Notes under the pieces: generated by a model | The model's input: the letters and a program-made list of their open reading frames with translations, nothing else | What the model was told of the DNA's origin: nothing | Database searches by the model: none | DNA from: Microlunatus phosphovorus NM-1 | GTDB taxonomy: Bacteria > Actinomycetota > Actinomycetes > Propionibacteriales > Propionibacteriaceae | Direction of reading: 5' to 3' | NCBI RefSeq assembly: GCF_000270245.1 | Contig: NC_015635.1 | Span: 4,898,001-4,962,000 of the forward strand | DNA length: 64,000 nucleotides | Made by a program: the position numbers and the translations under genes | Part shown: in pieces, positions 7,469-53,959 of the stretch | Numbering within the stretch: position 1 is the first letter of the stretch | How the letters are laid out: each line of letters begins with the position of its first letter

Positions 7469-7502
7469 GGTGGGCACACAGGAGAGGAGGTGGTCCAAAG
7501 AC

Positions 7503-7541
7503 ATGAAGGCTTATTGGACTTGTGAGGTGGCGGCCAGCTAG
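7503..7541 (+). CDS. 12-residue peptide MKAYWTCEVAAS with extended Shine-Dalgarno
   Basis: A tiny reading frame too short for normal gene finders. GGAGGTGGTCC (7486-7496) upstream can pair with almost the whole 3' end of 16S rRNA (one G-U), then ATG, eleven codons and TAG. The stop is immediately followed by a strong hairpin. Promoter, ribosome site, peptide and hairpin fit in about 130 bases, so this looks like a real free-standing unit. Function unknown: it could be a leader peptide, a small protein, or a transcript whose translation matters rather than its product. Confidence 0.45.
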   Translation: MKAYWTCEVAAS

Positions 7542-7575
7542 CCGCTGCGCGACCTGTGAAGGTCGGCCGCAGCGG
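7542..7575 (+). terminator. GUGA-capped hairpin ending the micro-transcript
   Basis: CCGCTGCG-CGACCT (7542-7555) pairs with AGGTCG-CGCAGCGG (7560-7575, two-base bulge) around a GTGA tetraloop (GNRA class). Fourteen base pairs begin right after the peptide stop codon. No U-tract follows, as is common for actinobacterial terminators. Confidence 0.5.
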
Positions 7576-7600
7576 CCGGCTAATCCACAGCCAACACCCG

Positions 7601-7680
7601 AACCCGCGAACGTCGGACTCGTCCCCCGACCGTGGTCAGGCTGAGAGCGATCTCGACCCAACCACGACAGTTCGCGGGTT
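7601..7680. repeat. Long-range inverted repeat downstream of the micro-transcript
   Basis: AACCCGCGAA (7601-7610) and TTCGCGGGTT (7671-7680) are perfect 10-base arms; CGTGGT (7631-7636) and ACCACG (7661-7666) nest within them. The resulting branched stem lies between the peptide unit and pdxH's terminator. Role unknown. Confidence 0.4.
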
Positions 7681-7708
7681 TGTCGCGTTCTGGGAGAAGC
7701 CAGGCACT

Positions 7709-20460: not shown

Positions 20461-20527
20461 ACTTCGCACCATTTAGGTCGACTGCGCAGGCGCACGTGGT
20501 GCGCGGTCGCATCAAATGGTGCGAAGT
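20461..20527. repeat. Nested inverted repeat in the marR/DUF2530 intergenic region
   Basis: ACTTCGCACCATTT (20461-20474) and AAATGGTGCGAAGT (20514-20527) are perfect 14-base arms; the loop holds GCGCAC-GTG-GTGCGC. A second, shorter version of the right arm (GCGGTCGCATCAA) follows near 20549. Too far from either gene to be a terminator of a visible transcript; purpose unknown. Confidence 0.5.
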
Positions 20528-26651: not shown

Positions 26652-26749
26652 GGCAATCAGTGTAGGAAGGGGTGCCGACACAGCTGCCCAGTCTCAATCA
26701 GCGCGGATGCGTCAGTCCTGTGACGGGCCCGTAGTTGCCCCCAATGGTC

Positions 26750-26836
26750 ATTCATGGCCCGGGGGCGCAAGACGTACCCACTTCCCGCCCGGCCCGCGGC
26801 CGTCCTTGGCCCGGCGGCGCAAAACAGCCGTCGCAG
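26750..26836 (-). repeat. 52-bp-period repeat family, two units (minus orientation)
   Basis: Two copies of the family read on the minus strand: GGTACGTCTTGCGCCCCCGG with GGCCATGAATGACC, and GGCTGTTTTGCGCCGCCGG with GGCCAAGGACGG. Their cores are 52 bases apart (26755 and 26807). They occupy the gap between the CopD-CtaG gene and the end of the DUF3027 gene. Confidence 0.6.
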
Positions 26837-36656: not shown

Positions 36657-36760
36657 GGCGCATCTGGCGCCGCGGGGCCAAACACGACCGCTGATCCTGC
36701 GGAGAGCACGTACCTCTGGCGCCGCCGGGCCACAAGCGACCGTGGACGCCCGCGACTGCA
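36657..36760 (+). repeat. 52-bp-period repeat family, two units
   Basis: Cores GGGCCAAACACGACC and GGGCCACAAGCGACC, each preceded by CTGGCGCC(G), start at 36675 and 36727, exactly 52 bases apart. The left flank CATC/TACCTC matches the GTACGTCTC part of units elsewhere. They lie just before the end of the USP gene on the other strand. Confidence 0.6.
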
Positions 36761-37824: not shown

Positions 37825-37985
37825 GCCGCGTACGTCTTGCACCCGCGGGCCACGAACGATCGTCGACCGGGCGCGCGCGGCGTACGTCTTGCGCCCGCGG
37901 GCCACGAACGATCACCGACCGGGCGTCGCCGACATACGTCCTGCACCCCCGGGCGACGAACGATCGCAGACCCCGGAAGATCCGT
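37825..37985 (+). repeat. 52-bp-period repeat family, three units
   Basis: Cores GGGCCACGAACGATC, GGGCCACGAACGATC and GGGCGACGAACGATC start at 37847, 37899 and 37951, each exactly 52 bases apart, with TACGTCTTGC(A/G)CCC(G/C)C before them. The array fills part of the 419-base divergent gap between the USP gene and the CocE gene; the rest shows no gene. Confidence 0.65.
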
Positions 37986-44109: not shown

Positions 44110-44156
44110 GAACCTTCTCCTGATGAGGCCAGTCTCCCGATGAGCTCGGAGTCTTG

Positions 44157-46277
44157 ATGAACCCTGTGTCCAAACCCCCTCAGCGGACCTCGGCGACAGC
44201 ACGTCGACGACGGCGTCGCCGTCGTCGGATGATCATCATCGGCGTACCGGTAGCGGTTGCTCTCACGGCCGCAACCGCCTTCGGCGCCCAGGCGCTGCAG
44301 TCGAGTTCGGCCGCCGACCGCTATGTGACGACCACTGCCACGACGGGATCGATCAGCCAGACGCTGTCCGGCACCGGGACCCTGGCCCGGGTGAAGAACG
44401 CTGACGTGTCGTTTCCCGCCGCGGGCACCGTCACCTCGGTCAAGGTGCAGGTGGGCGACACCGTCAAGGCCGGCGATGTCTTGGCCACCATGGACACCGG
44501 CGATCTGAAGGACGCCATCACCGAGGCCGAGGCAAATCTGGCTGCCGCCAAGCTGACCTTGGAGCAAGCCGAACAAGCCGCTGAGGACGAAACCTCCGCC
44601 AGCGCCTCCACTTCAGCCAGCACGTCTGCTGGCGCCTCCGCGAAGGCGTCCGCCAGCGCACCCTCGGCGAACCGGTCGTCCGATCGATCGTCCAGCAAGA
44701 CCCCGAGCCGATCGAGTTCGAGTTCGTCGCCGGCGAGGTCGACCACGCCCACGCCGTCCGCATCACCGACCCCTTCGGCCTCCCCGACCACCTCCCCCAG
44801 TGCACCTCCGAGCTTGCCGAGCACGGCAGACATCGCAGCCAAACAACAGGCCGTCAAGGACGCCCAGCAGTCGCTGACCGACGCCCTGTCCACAGCGACC
44901 GGCGCGGTCGCCGACGCCGGCGAGATCTGCCGCGCTGCTTTGTCTGCTGAGCCTTCGGAGTCACCGAGTCCAAGTGACTCGCCCAGCTCGAGCGATGCCC
45001 CGAGCCCCAGCGACACCCCGTCTCCGTCCGATACCCCGAGTCCGAGCGACACCCCGTCTCCGTCCGACACCCCGTCCAGCACGCCATCGGCGTCAGCGGC
45101 CGACAGCGCCGCGGGCGGTCAGGCCGTCGTGCTGGACGCCGGCTATGACCGCGATGCCTGTACGGCGGCGCTGGACAAGGCGCAACAAGCCCAGCACGGT
45201 GTCGTCGACGAGCAGGAGTCGCTGGCCAACGCCGTCCAAGCGCTCACCACGGCAGCCAGTGAACTCGCCTCGACACCACCCACGACCAATCCGTCACCGA
45301 GGCCGAGCAGCACCTCGACCGCCGAGCCACCATCCCCTCGGCCCACGACGTCTCCGTCGAATTCCTCCGCGCCGCCCTCGTCCAAGTCGACGACGTCCAA
45401 GTCGACGACGTCCAGCAACCAGGCGACGAACTCCTCGAACTCACGCTCGACCGGCTCCTCATCCGCCGGGTCTTCATCGGGAGCTTCCTCCGCGACCAAC
45501 TCAGCACGCAACAGCCAGGGCGGCCAGACCACCAGCGTCGCGGCGGCGACGGCAAGTGTGAAGAAGGCGAAGCTGGCGCTGACCCAGGCTGAACTCGATC
45601 TCGACCACGCGACCCTATTGGCACCCATCGACGGCACAGTCGCGACTCAGCCGTTCACCAAAGGTGAGTCGACGGCCACCTCCGATGCGATCGAGATCGT
45701 CGGCACCGGGGCGGTGCAGTTGACCATCGACGTATCCGAGGACGCCATCCGCTCGGTGAAAGTCGGGCAGCAGGCGTCCGTCTCTCCCTCCCCCGGCACG
45801 ACGTTCCCGGCCAAGGTCACCGCGATCAGCCTGCTGCCCAGTGACTCGTCCGACTCATCCGCGACCTATCCGGTCACGCTCACGATCGACGCGACCACGG
45901 CCAAGAAGCACCGTACGGCGTTGGCCTCCGGCGTCTCCGCCACGGCGACGATCACCGTGGCTTCGGCCAAGGACGCGGTGCTGGTCCCGGTCTCCGCCGT
46001 CCGGCCCACCGGTGACGGCTCAGGCACGGTCACCGTGGTGTCCGGCTCCAGCACCACCACCCAGCGGGTCCAGCTCGGGGTGATGGACGGGACTCGTGTC
46101 CAGCTCGCCGACGGTGTGACAGCCGGTACGACCGTGTCGCTCGCTGACACCACCGAGGCGCTGCCGACCACCGGCACCACGACGAACCGTCGGCGTACCG
46201 GTAGCAGCCTGACCGGCGGCGGTGGCGGCTTCAGTGGCGGTGGCGGCGGGATCACCGTCCGTCGGGGCGGCGGCTGA
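44157..46277 (+). CDS. Second MacA-like adaptor with long Ser/Pro-rich coiled-coil insert
   Basis: 706 residues, about twice the usual MacA. A basic stretch and membrane helix start it; VSFPAAGTVTSVKVQVGDTV and the coiled coil with ITEAEANLAAAKLTLEQA begin the adaptor, then about 300 residues of Ser/Pro/Thr low complexity (repeats such as TPSPSD and a KSTTSKSTTSS region) interrupt it; the second helix (ASVKKAKLALTQAELDLDHA), the APIDGTVATQPF barrel half, and VPVSAVRPTGD close the domain. A Gly-rich tail follows. Probably can replace the broken first adaptor. Confidence 0.85.
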   Translation: MNPVSKPPQRTSATARRRRRRRRRMIIIGVPVAVALTAATAFGAQALQSSSAADRYVTTTATTGSISQTLSGTGTLARVKNADVSFPAAGTVTSVKVQVGDTVKAGDVLATMDTGDLKDAITEAEANLAAAKLTLEQAEQAAEDETSASASTSASTSAGASAKASASAPSANRSSDRSSSKTPSRSSSSSSPARSTTPTPSASPTPSASPTTSPSAPPSLPSTADIAAKQQAVKDAQQSLTDALSTATGAVADAGEICRAALSAEPSESPSPSDSPSSSDAPSPSDTPSPSDTPSPSDTPSPSDTPSSTPSASAADSAAGGQAVVLDAGYDRDACTAALDKAQQAQHGVVDEQESLANAVQALTTAASELASTPPTTNPSPRPSSTSTAEPPSPRPTTSPSNSSAPPSSKSTTSKSTTSSNQATNSSNSRSTGSSSAGSSSGASSATNSARNSQGGQTTSVAAATASVKKAKLALTQAELDLDHATLLAPIDGTVATQPFTKGESTATSDAIEIVGTGAVQLTIDVSEDAIRSVKVGQQASVSPSPGTTFPAKVTAISLLPSDSSDSSATYPVTLTIDATTAKKHRTALASGVSATATITVASAKDAVLVPVSAVRPTGDGSGTVTVVSGSSTTTQRVQLGVMDGTRVQLADGVTAGTTVSLADTTEALPTTGTTTNRRRTGSSLTGGGGGFSGGGGGITVRRGGG

Positions 46278-46335
46278 CCCCCCGGGTCGGACCTCATCGG
46301 TCAGGCACCGTTTCTTCACAGAAACCTCAAAGGTC

Positions 46336-46364
46336 GGTTCACCAGGATGAATGCATCGTGAACC
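46336..46364. promoter_or_regulatory. Inverted repeat before the DUF4956 gene
   Basis: GGTTCAC (46336-46342) and GTGAACC (46358-46364) flank 15 bases, 18 bases before the DUF4956 start. GTTCACC also resembles one PhoP half-site. It may provide separate control of the three downstream genes. Confidence 0.35.
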
Positions 46365-46382
46365 ACTGATGAAGGAACTCCC

Positions 46383-46997
46383 ATGACCTCCCTGATCATG
46401 ATCGGCATCGACCTGATCGCCATCGCCGTCTTGACCTTTGCCGTCTACTTTCCTCGGCACCACCGCAAGGACCTCGTCGCCGCCTTCCTGGGCGTCAACG
46501 TGGGCGTCCTCGCGGTGGCCATGGTGCTCGGGTCCAGCACGGTGAGTGCCGGGCTCGGCCTCGGTCTGTTCGGGGTCTTGTCGATCATCCGGCTGCGATC
46601 CAGCGAGATCGCCCAGCACGAGGTGGCCTACTACTTCGCCTCGCTGGCGCTGGGTCTGTTGGCCGGGCTGACCAGCACGCCGAGCCTGCTGGTAGGCGGC
46701 CTGATGGTGCTGATCATCGCCGTACTCGCTATCGCCGACCACCCTCGGCTGCTGGGCGGCTATCGGCAACAGACGATCGTGGTCGATGTCGCGCACCGCG
46801 ACGAGGAGGTGCTGCGCTCGCATCTGGAGATGCTGCTCGGCGCCAAGCTGGTCAATCTCTCGGTGATCAGGCTGGACCTGGTCAACGACACCACCATGGT
46901 CGATGTCCGCTATCGGGTCCCGCGCCATCCGGTGCCGCACGAGTCGGCGCTGACCGCCCGTATCCACAACACTCGCACTCACGAGGTCGTCCGATGA
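46383..46997 (+). CDS. DUF4956 membrane protein
   Basis: 204 residues. Four hydrophobic helices (LIMIGIDLIAIAVLTFAVY, FLGVNVGVLAVAMVLG, LGLGLFGVLSIIRLRS, LALGLLAGLTSTPSLLVGGL) and a cytoplasmic C-terminal ferredoxin-like part (VVDVAHRDEEVLRSHLEMLL). SIIRLRSSEIAQHEVAYYF is the core family motif. DUF4956 proteins are nearly always next to VTC-domain genes, as here (ATGA overlap). Ribosome site GAAGGAA. Confidence 0.88.
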   Translation: MTSLIMIGIDLIAIAVLTFAVYFPRHHRKDLVAAFLGVNVGVLAVAMVLGSSTVSAGLGLGLFGVLSIIRLRSSEIAQHEVAYYFASLALGLLAGLTSTPSLLVGGLMVLIIAVLAIADHPRLLGGYRQQTIVVDVAHRDEEVLRSHLEMLLGAKLVNLSVIRLDLVNDTTMVDVRYRVPRHPVPHESALTARIHNTRTHEVVR

Positions 46998-47755
46998 TCG
47001 CCACCATGGCCCCGATCGGGCTGACCGAGCTCAGCGAGCAGGCCGGTCTGCTGACCCGAATCGACCGCAAATACCTGGTCGAGGTCGATCGGCTGGACGA
47101 CGTCTTGGCGACACTGCCCAGCACGACTCGCGTACTGCAGATCGAGGCTCGCCGGCAGTTCTGCTATCGCTCGGTGTACTTCGACACGGCCGACCTGCTC
47201 GCGTACCGGCTGACCGCGCTGCGTCGCCGGCGACGGTTCAAGATCAGGACGCGTAGCTATCTCGACGGCGGCCAACACCTGCTCGAGGTCAAGACCCGAG
47301 GGCCGCGTGGCGCCACGGTCAAGCAACAGCTGCCGTACGCGGGCGACGGCGAGCACCTGCTCAGCCAGGACCGTACCGAAGCGTGCCACGCCGTCGCGCA
47401 GACCGGTGCCAGGCCACCTGACTCGACCGAACTGCGACCGGTCCTGATCACCACCTATCACCGAGTGACGCTCTTCCTGCCGGCCAGCCGCAGTCGGGTG
47501 ACGATCGATACCGACCTGTGCTGGATGCTGCCCGACGGCAGCCGGCGGCGGCGAGTCGACAGCCACGCGATCGTCGAGACCAAATGCGCCGGCAGCGCTG
47601 CGGAGATGGACCGCGCGCTGTGGGCACTCCAACACCGCCCCTGCTCCATCTCCAAGTTCGGCACCGGTCTTGCGGCCCTACATCCCGAACTGCCGGCCCA
47701 TCGCTGGCGTCCCGTCCTGCATCGACAGCTGAGAGCCGAGGAGCTCACCTCATGA
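46994..47755 (+). CDS. VTC-domain protein (polyphosphate polymerase-like)
   Basis: 253 residues, a triphosphate-tunnel fold. Basic motifs expected in the tunnel are visible: TRIDRKYLVEVD, YRSVYFDT, RRRRFKIRTRSYL, LLEVKTRGPRG, VTIDTDLCW, IVETKCAG and SKFGTGLAAL; the alternating E-x-K pattern matches yeast VTC4 catalytic tunnels. It may make or bind polyphosphate, or modify a surface polymer; activity is unproven. Overlaps DUF4956 and the following lipoprotein by ATGA at both ends, giving a strict three-gene operon. Confidence 0.87.
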   Translation: MIATMAPIGLTELSEQAGLLTRIDRKYLVEVDRLDDVLATLPSTTRVLQIEARRQFCYRSVYFDTADLLAYRLTALRRRRRFKIRTRSYLDGGQHLLEVKTRGPRGATVKQQLPYAGDGEHLLSQDRTEACHAVAQTGARPPDSTELRPVLITTYHRVTLFLPASRSRVTIDTDLCWMLPDGSRRRRVDSHAIVETKCAGSAAEMDRALWALQHRPCSISKFGTGLAALHPELPAHRWRPVLHRQLRAEELTS

Positions 47756-49623
47756 ACGCCCTGAAAAGAACCACGACCGTACGCCGCCGACTCGCAGGTC
47801 TGGCAGCACTCTCCGTCTTCAGCGTCGGGGCATTGGCCGGCTGCGGAGTCGGCGCCTCCGGCAACTCCGCCACCGATTCGACGACCTCCGCAGGTTCGAC
47901 CGTGTCCGTCTCCGCAGCGCAGACCGCTGCGGAGGTGCTCGCCGCCAACAAGGAAGCGCATTCCGCCGACGCCACCAGCTACGACGCCTCGACCGCCACC
48001 ACCATCACCTTGACCGGCAGCTCTGCCACCGCTTCCGGTGACGGCAGCGAGAACGTCACCATCGACGGCTCCTCGGTGACGATCACGGCAGCGGGCACGT
48101 ACGTCTTGTCCGGTTCACTGACCGACGGCCAGGTGACCATCGATGCCGCCGACGCACATGTCGTCCTCGTCCTGAACGGGGTCGACATCGCCAGCAGCAG
48201 CGGCGCGGCGATCGCCGCCACCGACGCCGACGAGGTGACCGTCATCACCGCTGACGGCAGTGAGAACACGCTCAGCGACACCGACAGCTATGCCACCGAC
48301 GCCGAGGTCAACGCTGCTCTCTACAGCACCGCCGATCTGACCCTGGCCGGGACCGGGAAGCTGACGGTCAAGGGCAACGGCAACGACGGTATCGCCACCA
48401 CCGACGGGCTGCTGATCACCTCGGGCACGATCACCGTGCAGGCGAAGGACGACGGCATCCGAGGCAAGGACTACGTCGTGGTCGCCGACGGCACCATCAC
48501 GATCACCTCCGGCGGAGACGGCATCAAGTCCGATAACGACGAGGACGAGACAGCCGGGTACGTCGACATCCAGGGCGGCAAAGTCACTGTGACGACGACC
48601 GCCGGCGATGGCGTCGATGCGGCCACCGACCTGGTGGTCACCGGTGGCGCGGTCAGCGCCACGACCGGCGGTGGCCATGAGTCCCAGGCCGGCGACGACG
48701 ACTCGACCAAGGGCTTGAAATCCGGCGTGCTCAGTGTCTATGAGGGCGGCACGATCACCGTCGACGCCAGTGATGATGCGCTGCACAGCGACGGGTCCGC
48801 AGCCTTGAGCGGCGCCACCGTGACTCTGGCCAGCGGTGATGACGCGGTGCATGCCGAGGACGAGCTGCTGATCAGCAAGGGCACCGTCGAAGTGTCGACC
48901 TCGAACGAGGGGTTGGAGGCAGCGCACATCACCGTCAGCGGCGGGGACACCACGGTGACCTCGAGCGATGACGGCGTGAACGCCGCCGGCGGCAGCAGCG
49001 GGACCGAGGACTCAGCCGCAGGTGACCAGCAAGGCGCTGGTCCCGGCGGCGGGGGTGGCGCTGGCGGGGGTGGCGAGGAGGTCGGCGACTACTCGGTGAC
49101 CATCACCGCCGGAACTCTGGTCATCAACGCCGAGGGCGACGGACTGGATTCCAACGGCTCTGCCTCGATCGCGGGCGGCACCGTGGTCGTCAACGGGCCC
49201 GCGGGCAACGGGAACGGAGCGCTCGACGTCAACGGGGAATTCACTGTCGACGGCGGCACTCTGGTCGCCGCCGGCAGCGCCGGCATGGTCGTCTCGCCTG
49301 GCACGGGTTCCAAGCAGGGCTGGGTCTCGGCGACGTTGGACCGCGCCGTCGAGGCGGGCACGGTGATCCAGATCGTGGATGCCGACAAGAAGGTGATCGC
49401 CACCTACACCGCGGGGAAGTCGGTGCAGAACGTGGTGGTCTCCACCGCTGACATCACCGACGGTGACGAATACTCCGTCTACCTCGGCGGCACGGCGAGC
49501 GGCGACTCGGTCGGCGGACTGTCTACTGCCGGCGAGTTGGGGTCGGCAACCTCGTCCGCGACCGTCACCGCCGGCGAGGCCGCGGCCGGTGGGATGGGCG
49601 GCGGAGGTGGCGGTCGACGCTGA
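47752..49623 (+). CDS. Cthe_2159-like carbohydrate-binding beta-helix lipoprotein
   Basis: 623 residues. A basic signal peptide with lipobox ALAGCG at about residue 30, then from residue 80 repeated beta-helix rungs: ITAAGTYVLSGSLTDGQVTI, IASSSGAAIAATDADEVTVI, GNGNDGIATTDGLLITSGTI, DDGIRGKDYVVVADGTITIT, GGDGIKSDNDEDET, with Asp-rich turns that bind calcium, and GLDSNGSASIAGGTVVVN later. The family (DUF4353) binds polygalacturonate/cellulose in C. thermocellum. Gly-rich linkers and tail. ATG 47752 overlaps the VTC stop. Surface adhesin or polymer binder by inference. Confidence 0.85.
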   Translation: MNALKRTTTVRRRLAGLAALSVFSVGALAGCGVGASGNSATDSTTSAGSTVSVSAAQTAAEVLAANKEAHSADATSYDASTATTITLTGSSATASGDGSENVTIDGSSVTITAAGTYVLSGSLTDGQVTIDAADAHVVLVLNGVDIASSSGAAIAATDADEVTVITADGSENTLSDTDSYATDAEVNAALYSTADLTLAGTGKLTVKGNGNDGIATTDGLLITSGTITVQAKDDGIRGKDYVVVADGTITITSGGDGIKSDNDEDETAGYVDIQGGKVTVTTTAGDGVDAATDLVVTGGAVSATTGGGHESQAGDDDSTKGLKSGVLSVYEGGTITVDASDDALHSDGSAALSGATVTLASGDDAVHAEDELLISKGTVEVSTSNEGLEAAHITVSGGDTTVTSSDDGVNAAGGSSGTEDSAAGDQQGAGPGGGGGAGGGGEEVGDYSVTITAGTLVINAEGDGLDSNGSASIAGGTVVVNGPAGNGNGALDVNGEFTVDGGTLVAAGSAGMVVSPGTGSKQGWVSATLDRAVEAGTVIQIVDADKKVIATYTAGKSVQNVVVSTADITDGDEYSVYLGGTASGDSVGGLSTAGELGSATSSATVTAGEAAAGGMGGGGGGRR

Positions 49624-49654
49624 ATCCGGGTGCCGGTGGACTCATTCTGCGGGT

Positions 49655-50075
49655 CCGCCGGCACCTTTCGCACTCGGGGGCCGGTTCATGACCGCTGGGT
49701 GCGCGGATGGCCGGTACGTCTCGCGCCCCCGGGCCACACACGCCCGGGAGGCAGACGGGATGCGGGAACGTCTCGCGCCCCGGGGCCACAAACGACCGCG
49801 AGCAGACGGACGCGGGAACGTTTCGCGCCGGCGGGCCACACACGACCACGAATCAGGCGAAGTGCCGGTACATCTTGCGCCCCGGGGCCACACATGACCG
49901 CGAGCCAGACGAGCCGCAGCAACGTTTCGCGCCGCCGGGCCACACACGACCACGAGCCAGACGCAGTGCCGGGACATCTTGCGCCCCAGGGCCACACACG
50001 ACCGCCAGCCACGCGAACCACGGGAACGTCTCGCGCCCCCGGGCCACACCACCTGGGCCACCCGGCTCTGGGAAA
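49655..50075 (+). repeat. 52-bp-period direct repeat array, about eight units
   Basis: GGGCC cores start at 49678, 49731, 49783, 49833, 49885, 49937, 49989 and 50041 (spacings 53, 52, 50, 52, 52, 52, 52). Each unit has GGNACRTYTYGCGCC before the core and ACACACGACC after it, then about 20 less conserved bases. The period is not a multiple of three, so it is not coding. It fills the 490-base convergent gap between the beta-helix gene and the Nudix gene; nothing else is visible there. Confidence 0.75.
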
Positions 50076-50113
50076 CCGCCGACTAACCGCACCTCACCCT
50101 GCTCGAGCCGCGG

Positions 50114-50695
50114 TCACACCGGGATCGTGGACTCCTCCTGCCGACCCAGTTCCAGCACCGGCAGCGAAAGATCGGCGGCCCGGTCCCAGATCCCGAGGAG
50201 TTCTGCGGGCCAGATCCAGGCCGTCTTGCTCGCGAGCTCCTCAGGGCTCCACCAGCGATGACCCTGCAGAGTGACCTGCTCGTCCACGGTGTGCCCGGCG
50301 ACGTCCACCTCGAACGCCTGCACCCTCACGAGATAGAAGGACTCGTGCTGCTCGAGCACTTGATCGGTGTAGCCGTGCACCACATACCGCGTTGCCAGTG
50401 GACCGATCAGCGCGTCCTCGGCCAAGACATAGCCGGTCTCCTCGGCCATCTCCCGTACGGCAGCCTGTCGCTCGGTCTCGCCAGGATCTATGCCGCCCCC
50501 AGGGGTGACCCACCAGGTGAGTCCCGGAATGCCTGGGTCGCTGTCCTCGAACAGGAGCACTCGGTCATCCGGCCCGACCGCGATCACCCGCACCGCCCGT
50601 CGGCGGCGGACCGGCCGATCTGCCGGGTCCTGGGGAATCGCGAAGGTGCGGCCGGTCTCGGTGCTCACAACGGTCAGCGTACGGACCGGGACCAT
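50114..50695 (-). CDS. Nudix hydrolase
   Basis: 193 residues. The Nudix box is complete: GGGIDPGETERQAAVREMAEETG, here with G, the GE pair and REMAEETG in register, preceded by LTWWVTPGGG. An N-terminal basic segment (RPVRRRRAVRVIAV) and a C-terminal WWSPEELASKTAWIWP complete the fold. It hydrolyses a nucleoside diphosphate linked to another moiety; the exact substrate is unknown. Its ATG overlaps the TetR stop (TGATG), so it is co-translated with the regulator. Confidence 0.9.
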   Translation of the reverse strand: MVPVRTLTVVSTETGRTFAIPQDPADRPVRRRRAVRVIAVGPDDRVLLFEDSDPGIPGLTWWVTPGGGIDPGETERQAAVREMAEETGYVLAEDALIGPLATRYVVHGYTDQVLEQHESFYLVRVQAFEVDVAGHTVDEQVTLQGHRWWSPEELASKTAWIWPAELLGIWDRAADLSLPVLELGRQEESTIPV

Positions 50696-53831: not shown

Positions 53832-53959
53832 GCGATTTCCGGTTACCTGTCCACGCCACAGGTGGACCAACAACCGAAAGTTCGGTGCCCCCGGCAGTCC
53901 CCGGCGATTTCCGGTTACCTGTCCACGCCACAGGTGGACCAATAACCGGAAGTTCGGTG
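53832..53959. repeat. Duplicated palindrome between convergent helD and peptidase genes
   Basis: Two 56-base units at 53832-53887 and 53904-53959 (72-base period) differ at few positions. Each holds ACCTGT...ACAGGT and GTCCAC...GTGGAC as alternative stems, and the second copy has intact outer arms TTCCGGTTA/TAACCGGAA. They most likely act as a double, two-way terminator. Confidence 0.65.

Follow-up and report, generated by a model that had tools for sequence, protein, structure and literature searches.

What a regularly stepped repeat does in the gap between two converging genes, and whether its step is kept for something that reads the DNA or is inherited from the way the repeat arose, is the question raised by a tandem array in the chromosome of Microlunatus phosphovorus NM-1. 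We studied it within a window of 64,000 nucleotides (the whole stretch of DNA analysed, to which positions refer unless given as chromosome positions). The array lies on the forward strand at 49714-50048 and consists of seven 52-bp units, each with a core of 33 bp and a linker of 19 bp. The cores occupy 49714-49746 (core 1, an imperfect dyad of the form GTACGTCTCGCGCC-CCC-GGGCCACACACGCCC, profile score 40.2 bits), 49766-49798 (core 2, 45.9 bits), 49816-49848 (core 3, 50 bp after core 2, 43.3 bits), 49868-49900 (core 4, 42.3 bits), 49920-49952 (core 5, 39.3 bits), 49972-50004 (core 6, 36.8 bits) and 50024-50048 (core 7, with a degraded right half, 14.5 bits), all on the forward strand. The first-pass annotation had claimed eight units. 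Splitting the window sequence at GGGCC does give eight starts, at 49678, 49731, 49783, 49833, 49885, 49937, 49989 and 50041, but the place at 49678 scores below the 14-bit profile threshold, so that the leading spacing of 53 is spurious; the seven units that remain have their GGGCC at the last seven of these positions, with spacings of 52, 50, 52, 52, 52 and 52. The array as such is confirmed by TRF, which reports a period of 52 at 49716-50049. It occupies the convergent gap between a Cthe_2159-type carbohydrate-binding protein gene (47518-49623, forward strand; Pfam PF14262, E = 1.6e-85), whose real start is probably downstream of 47518, and a NUDIX protein gene (50114-50695, reverse strand; Pfam PF00293, E = 3.6e-21). 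It is non-coding, as had been proposed: it lies between the gene that ends at 49623 and the one at 50114-50695, and its period is not a multiple of 3.

The window array belongs to a satellite family that is dispersed over the 5.68-Mb chromosome and lies almost entirely between genes, with at least 363 units in at least 92 loci, counted by a profile scan that read about 15% of the genome. Three more loci fall within the window itself: two units with a spacing of 52 at 26745-26829 on the reverse strand (chromosome 4924760 and 4924812), two units, also 52 apart, at 36658-36742 on the forward strand (4934675 and 4934727), and three units with spacings of 52 and 52 at 37830-37966 on the forward strand (4935847, 4935899 and 4935951). 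At the scale of the genome, the 15-mer GGGCCACACACGACC with up to two mismatches occurs at 185 places versus 30 for its backward control, and blastn with the window array gives 51 matches at E <= 1. The profile scan covered 873,273 bases, mostly picked around known matches (73 stretches aimed at matches, plus seven control stretches of 20 kb each placed away from known ones), and returned 367 raw matches above 14 bits, versus none in 407,236 bases read backwards; discarding two weaker opposite-strand matches and two isolated weak ones leaves the 363 units. The family is present in the window, in 72 of the 73 aimed stretches (the profile scan found no locus in the remaining one, L101) and in none of the seven control stretches, a zero that is only a partial test because these were placed where no match was known. 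At least two units are found at 85 of the 92 loci, the number per array ranging from 2 to 11. Seven loci score as single units, one of them at the end of a fetched stretch, and at some of these a broken neighbour can be seen by eye one step away.

Conserved and variable segments alternate within the units as the first-pass annotation described. When the first and last cores of 91 of the 92 loci were aligned (one at a stretch end was left out), conservation was near background a few bases beyond either core edge, and these sharp ends define the layout as core(33)-[linker(19)-core]n. Identity between loci is 0.72-0.73 for cores and 0.47-0.48 for linkers, versus 0.31 at random, and very similar values are obtained with one dimer per locus for the 68 loci outside the composite repeat described below (core 0.716, linker 0.471, random letters 0.313). 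A weak consensus, about RRYCRGGCG, is common to the linkers. The core forms an imperfect dyad, with CG-NN-CGTYT-NNN-GCC on either side of a short variable centre, and is polar, since its two half sites consistently differ. In 60 diverse cores, the dyad pairs are formed in 73.1% of cells versus 20-43% when slid; shuffles of the 3' letters equal this cells-paired score in 435 of 500 cases and match the covariation score in 445 of 500, so that the dyad shows no covariation in this sample. Pairing without covariation suggests that what is kept is the sequence of the dyad and not a compensated helix, as would be expected more of a protein site. The dyad is not marked out by conservation alone, whose mirror correlation is r 0.49 at the dyad centre versus 0.66 (13 pairs) at an unrelated centre. 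Inside the core, no clear helical (10.4-bp) rhythm of conservation is apparent: the periodicity is strongest at 8 (p 0.004) and 9 (p 0.0025), with p values of 0.036 at 10, 0.0875 at 10.4 and 0.107 at 10.5.

The spacing at other loci had been named beforehand as the test on which the idea of a fixed step could fail. The step holds at the loci found: counting same-strand neighbours only, up to 260 bp, 235 of 271 spacings are exactly 52; the others are 51 (14), 53 (7), 50 (3), 54 (2) and 55 (2), together with one each of 40, 41, 66, 90, 105, 115, 154 and 157. The two spacings of 40-41, one turn less, are offset by spacings of 54, 54, 55, 55 and 66. An exact 52 is present in 82 of the 85 multi-unit loci, in 57 of which all spacings are 52. 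As the loci are not independent, we grouped them by flank homology, which reduced the 92 loci to 59 groups; the modal spacing is 52 in 50 of the 53 groups that have spacings. Outside the composite repeat there are 27 two-unit loci, with a spacing of 52 at 24 of them and of 53, 66 and 115 at one each. Opposite-strand neighbours within 260 bp occur at only two places (chromosome 4518836/4518891 and 5352496/5352686), and head-to-tail order is the rule within arrays, which were clustered by strand.

How far this register is actively maintained can be gauged from the rate at which other repeated sequence of the same genome changes length. Ten copies of the composite-repeat tail, compared pairwise, differ by 531 substitutions and 98 indels; an earlier set of twelve tails, of which two had unrelated ends, showed 1676 substitutions and 185 indels, and the passage from twelve to ten (two dropped, one trimmed) raised the indel ratio from 0.11 to 0.18. 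At about 10 differences per 19-bp linker pair, the tail ratio would lead one to expect one to two length changes in each pair. Yet only 36 of the 271 spacings depart from 52 and, from the spacing counts, a random pair of spacings is unequal about a quarter of the time. Linkers thus diverge yet mostly keep their length, so that the register looks constrained. The indel estimate is rough, given that the tails are related, that indels in cores hide units from the scan and that linkers keep a weak consensus; on this comparison of sequences, the retention of linker length favours selection on spacing without proving it. The same weak consensus means that the register could be partly inherited, shared descent being compatible with constant spacing.

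The position of the arrays relative to genes was assessed with our own simple gene calls, which class 84% of the sequence as coding. Ninety of the 92 found loci are intergenic, one overlaps a weak call and one is without a callable left neighbour. Compared with the numbers expected from residual gap length, loci are seen in 28 convergent (17.3 expected), 48 tandem (49.9) and 15 divergent gaps (23.8), and the table of gap types with and without arrays gives a chi-square p of 0.0046. In tandem gaps, 36 of 48 loci are closer to the upstream stop, at a median distance of 63 bp versus 181.5 bp to the downstream start, and the arrays are indifferent to the direction of transcription (array and gene lie on the same strand in 27 of 48 cases). 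This bias to gene 3' ends may reflect promoter avoidance as well as function. Two cases in which arrays in opposite orientation flank a single gene (L126 and L150) were considered and dropped, the enclosed genes, for an IclR regulator and a DUF559 protein, having no common theme.

That the repeat might belong to a larger element, a context the first-pass annotation had raised against its own reading, does not apply to the window array, which is neither of the composite-repeat nor of the DUF222-block kind, but holds for part of the family: 14 of the 92 found loci lie inside a composite repeat of about 700 bp with palindromic ends ACTTCGCACCA / TGGTGCGAAGT. Eight of these loci were aligned and six more recognised by their flanks, and a 3' hairpin tail motif is present in 12 of the 14. 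Copies lie near chromosome positions 409614, 1941284, 2594329 and 4576416 (L100, L121, L131 and L155) and near 5042333, 5060427, 5089082 and 5130821 (L159, L160, L161 and L162). The ends of the composite repeat are nested-palindromic, and the repeat also has a long near-perfect hairpin CGAGAAGGAGG..GGCACCTGTT..AACAGGTGCC..CCTCCTTCTCG; in the copy at locus 2557054 the inner stem is altered and, by eye, pairing is retained. An inverted pair of the end motif TGGTGCGAAGT also occurs in the window at 20461-20527 with no array nearby, and 20 of 100 shuffles also give two matches with at most one mismatch.

Another part of the family is linked to DUF222 genes. Two groups of these genes, at seven loci, have been dispersed jointly with the array upstream of them, as one block whose homology ends in or near the array: one group (L134, L142 and L170) has 81-84% identity over 1.7-1.86 kb and the other (L135, L136, L143 and L167) 89-98%, in pieces. 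The number of scored units differs between the paralogous loci L136 and L143 (2 versus 7), though the block is 96.6% identical. The DUF222 copies of L136 and L167 are interrupted at different places by the same 1.3-kb insert, which, from its 99.9% identity, is probably an insertion sequence. An array stands close to 6 of the 14 DUF222 frames; a DUF222 link for all arrays was rejected, since the other 8 of the 14 DUF222 loci carry no unit. Two DUF222 proteins were scanned against Pfam, which found DUF222 in them and no HNH domain at E <= 0.001.

Among the genomes searched, the satellite family was found in this one alone. With few candidates scored per genome and a threshold of E <= 1e-4, a 36-bp core model matches neither the 197 other genomes of the taxonomic family nor 390 others drawn from the order, a set that overlaps the former; within the genus, 6 of 19 other genomes give one weak match each (E 0.001-0.008). 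The exact 15-mer occurs at one or two places in 6 of 56 other genomes, which was taken as chance level, the backward control having one place in 4. Neither exact scans of genome and viral contigs nor blastn against plasmids and phages gave a match, in sets from which near kin may be left out. The best NUDIX matches in eleven relatives, of unverified synteny, show no 52-bp lag in their 3' flank, with values of at most 0.38 at lags 30 to 79 versus 0.53 at lag 52 for the flank studied here. TRF on 100 kb from each of eight relatives detected no dispersed 52-bp family; the same sequences contain unrelated single repeats, for instance of period 51 (G003, 2.0 copies) and 54 (G006, 2.2 copies). A palindrome of a same-genus genome (L044), considered as an ancestral inverted pair, was attributed to chance: with up to three mismatches allowed, its pattern occurs once in 20 genomes and not in the present one. 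Tandem arrays of another palindrome, CCCTGAGCCYGTCGAAGGG, occur in related species, where the periods are irregular: 28 and 48 in L193 (G019, 694-836) and 53, 42 and 23 in L230 (G010, 996-1207).

We favour a reading, to which we give a probability of about one half, in which the arrays would be in-register sites for a putative protein, carried on a lineage-specific satellite. One feature of a tandem protein-binding array, constant spacing despite linker divergence, is found here, within the roughness of the indel estimate. The core would be recognised as double-stranded DNA by a putative protein, dimeric or asymmetric, for which one core is not enough and at least a second one in register is required; cores one step apart, about five helical turns, would be presented on one side of the DNA. 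The protein might bridge, coat or recombine the 2 to 11 sites of an array, which often lies close to the 3' end of a gene, and some array copies would have spread with larger repeats and neighbouring genes. The protein could serve to organise the chromosome or to spread the repeat itself by way of a recombinase or transposase. Against this reading, spacings of 51 and 53 are tolerated, the core has no clear 10.4-bp rhythm, and the lack of a match in the family and order genomes searched is unexpected for a basic chromosomal function. A bolder form of this proposal, which we consider unlikely, is a new class of mobile satellite whose minimal cis unit would be two polar dyads at a distance of 52 bp. 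A protein of its own, which might belong to the DUF222 family, genes of which travel with arrays in the two groups, would recognise them in helical register, both spreading the arrays and organising chromosomal DNA around the 3' ends of genes.

The main rival is a neutral or selfish satellite with an inherited period, a serious possibility that we nonetheless hold only tentatively: a lineage-specific, MIRU-like repeat spread by some mechanism, bound by nothing, whose 52-bp period would be that of the founding tandem copy. Such a satellite would be expected to be numerous in one genome, as the presence of at least 92 loci without a match in the other family and order genomes searched indicates, to ride in larger elements, as 14 loci do in the palindrome-ended composite repeat, and to vary in unit number between recent paralogous loci, as L136 and L143 do; the 3'-end bias and the deficit in divergent gaps fit insertion tolerance. 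What it explains less well is that linkers have mostly kept their length while their sequence diverged and that 85 of the 92 found loci have at least two cores; as to its spread, the 78 loci outside the composite repeat show no excess of target-site duplications or flanking inverted repeats, and the genome has no Y1 transposase. The same 3'-end bias, seen both in the excess of convergent gaps and in the proximity of tandem-gap loci to the upstream stop, would, with the imperfect palindrome in the core, also suit RNA hairpins that end transcription or stabilise mRNA 3' ends, a role suggested for REP elements and one that we find improbable here. When folded as RNA, neither strand of the window array surpasses its shuffles (z +0.65 and +0.94), nor do eight single-unit sequences (z -0.81 to +1.10), and the array contains no terminator-like site (GC hairpin plus T run), the only one in 49400-50400 lying outside it at 50357-50341; moreover, the 52-bp register would have no role in an RNA. 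With no covariation and no fold beyond shuffles, the core probably acts as DNA.

A further idea takes the arrays for the places at which DUF222 (13E12-type) genes moved, each array being an end or a target of such a repeated gene element. The two gene groups dispersed with an upstream array, and the six DUF222 frames near one, are what it would predict, but those six (plus L135) fall into only two paralogue groups, the other eight DUF222 loci lack units, most arrays have no DUF222 gene near and the two proteins scanned have no HNH domain, so that we rate it as slightly more improbable still. CRISPR loci consist of near-identical repeats separated by unrelated spacers of about 26-72 bp. The repeat-spacer-repeat layout, with a repeat at both ends, recalls them, whereas the linkers here are 19 bp long and share a weak consensus, the cores are only 72-73% identical between loci and there are 92 loci; a degenerate CRISPR-like array is therefore hardly credible, and neither is a coding repeat, with a period that is not a multiple of 3 and a location outside predicted genes.

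Arrays that are tandem, of more than 30 bp, non-coding and present at several unlinked loci are dispersed non-coding satellites by definition, and those described here have all of these properties. This kind of element, the dispersed intergenic tandem repeat, is already known from MIRU and from Leptospira, and what is new is the anatomy and the number of loci. According to PMC3914561, MIRU are tandem repeats of 46-101 bp at 41 loci of an actinobacterial chromosome, with a copy number that varies at 12 of them. The present family is alike in having tandem repeats of similar size (period 52) scattered at many loci (at least 92), and differs in its single 52-bp register, its 33-bp dyad core with divergent linker and the fact that 85 of 92 loci have two cores or more. 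A survey of prokaryotes that judges dispersed non-coding satellites rare describes them in Leptospira interrogans and Methanocella conradii, with repeat lengths that mostly are not a multiple of 3, and tabulates families of 3 to 6 satellites each (PMC6749651). They share with ours the spread of a non-coding satellite family over one genome, whereas ours has at least 92 loci, a core-linker anatomy and an apparently constrained spacing. REP and BIME elements (GTAG- and CGTC-tagged palindromes) are short extragenic palindromic repeats in many copies, often as dimers (PMC3733652, in whose main text the word Actinobacteria is absent). The resemblance lies in short, extragenic, palindrome-bearing repeats in many copies; in contrast, the repeats studied here are direct and head-to-tail, with a 52-bp step, no hairpin energy and no Y1 transposase. 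A REP/RAYT system was rejected, given that there is no stable compensated hairpin and that PF01797 (Y1) has no match in the genome while being present in 5 of 14 control genomes. A MITE was likewise rejected, as the best agreement of flanking direct or inverted k-mers stays within the 95% point of shuffles when the 78 loci not in the composite repeat are examined. In iteron-type and operator arrays, one protein binds direct repeats set at regular intervals, and such arrays normally occupy one locus or a few; regular direct repeats are common to both kinds, whereas the present arrays are chromosome-wide and their binding is only putative. REP13E12/DUF222 is named among repetitive elements in PMC10589994. 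As in the REP13E12/DUF222 elements of mycobacteria, DUF222 genes occur as dispersed repeats here, in two groups with an attached array, whereas most arrays here are without a DUF222 gene.

A literature search in open PMC papers found no description of the 52-bp repeat. With at least 92 loci that obey a measurable rule, nearly always at least two cores and a 52-bp step, short probes could be used to test whether a protein reads the register. Such a protein, if there is one, would be a new factor that organises or mobilises DNA in an actinobacterium, presumably an environmental one.

The window contains other features of possible interest. A match to the actinobacterial sRNA Ms_IGR-5 lies at 7476-7688 (Rfam, 88.3 bits), and another repeat, GGTTATTGGTCCACCTGTGGC, is present as two copies 72 bp apart at 53855-53947, in a gap between two long ORFs. 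Upstream of the array, the region 44154-49623 encodes a Ser/Pro-rich protein (HlyD-like by eye) followed by DUF4956, VTC domain and Cthe_2159 proteins (Pfam), neighbours that would merit attention should the host accumulate polyphosphate.
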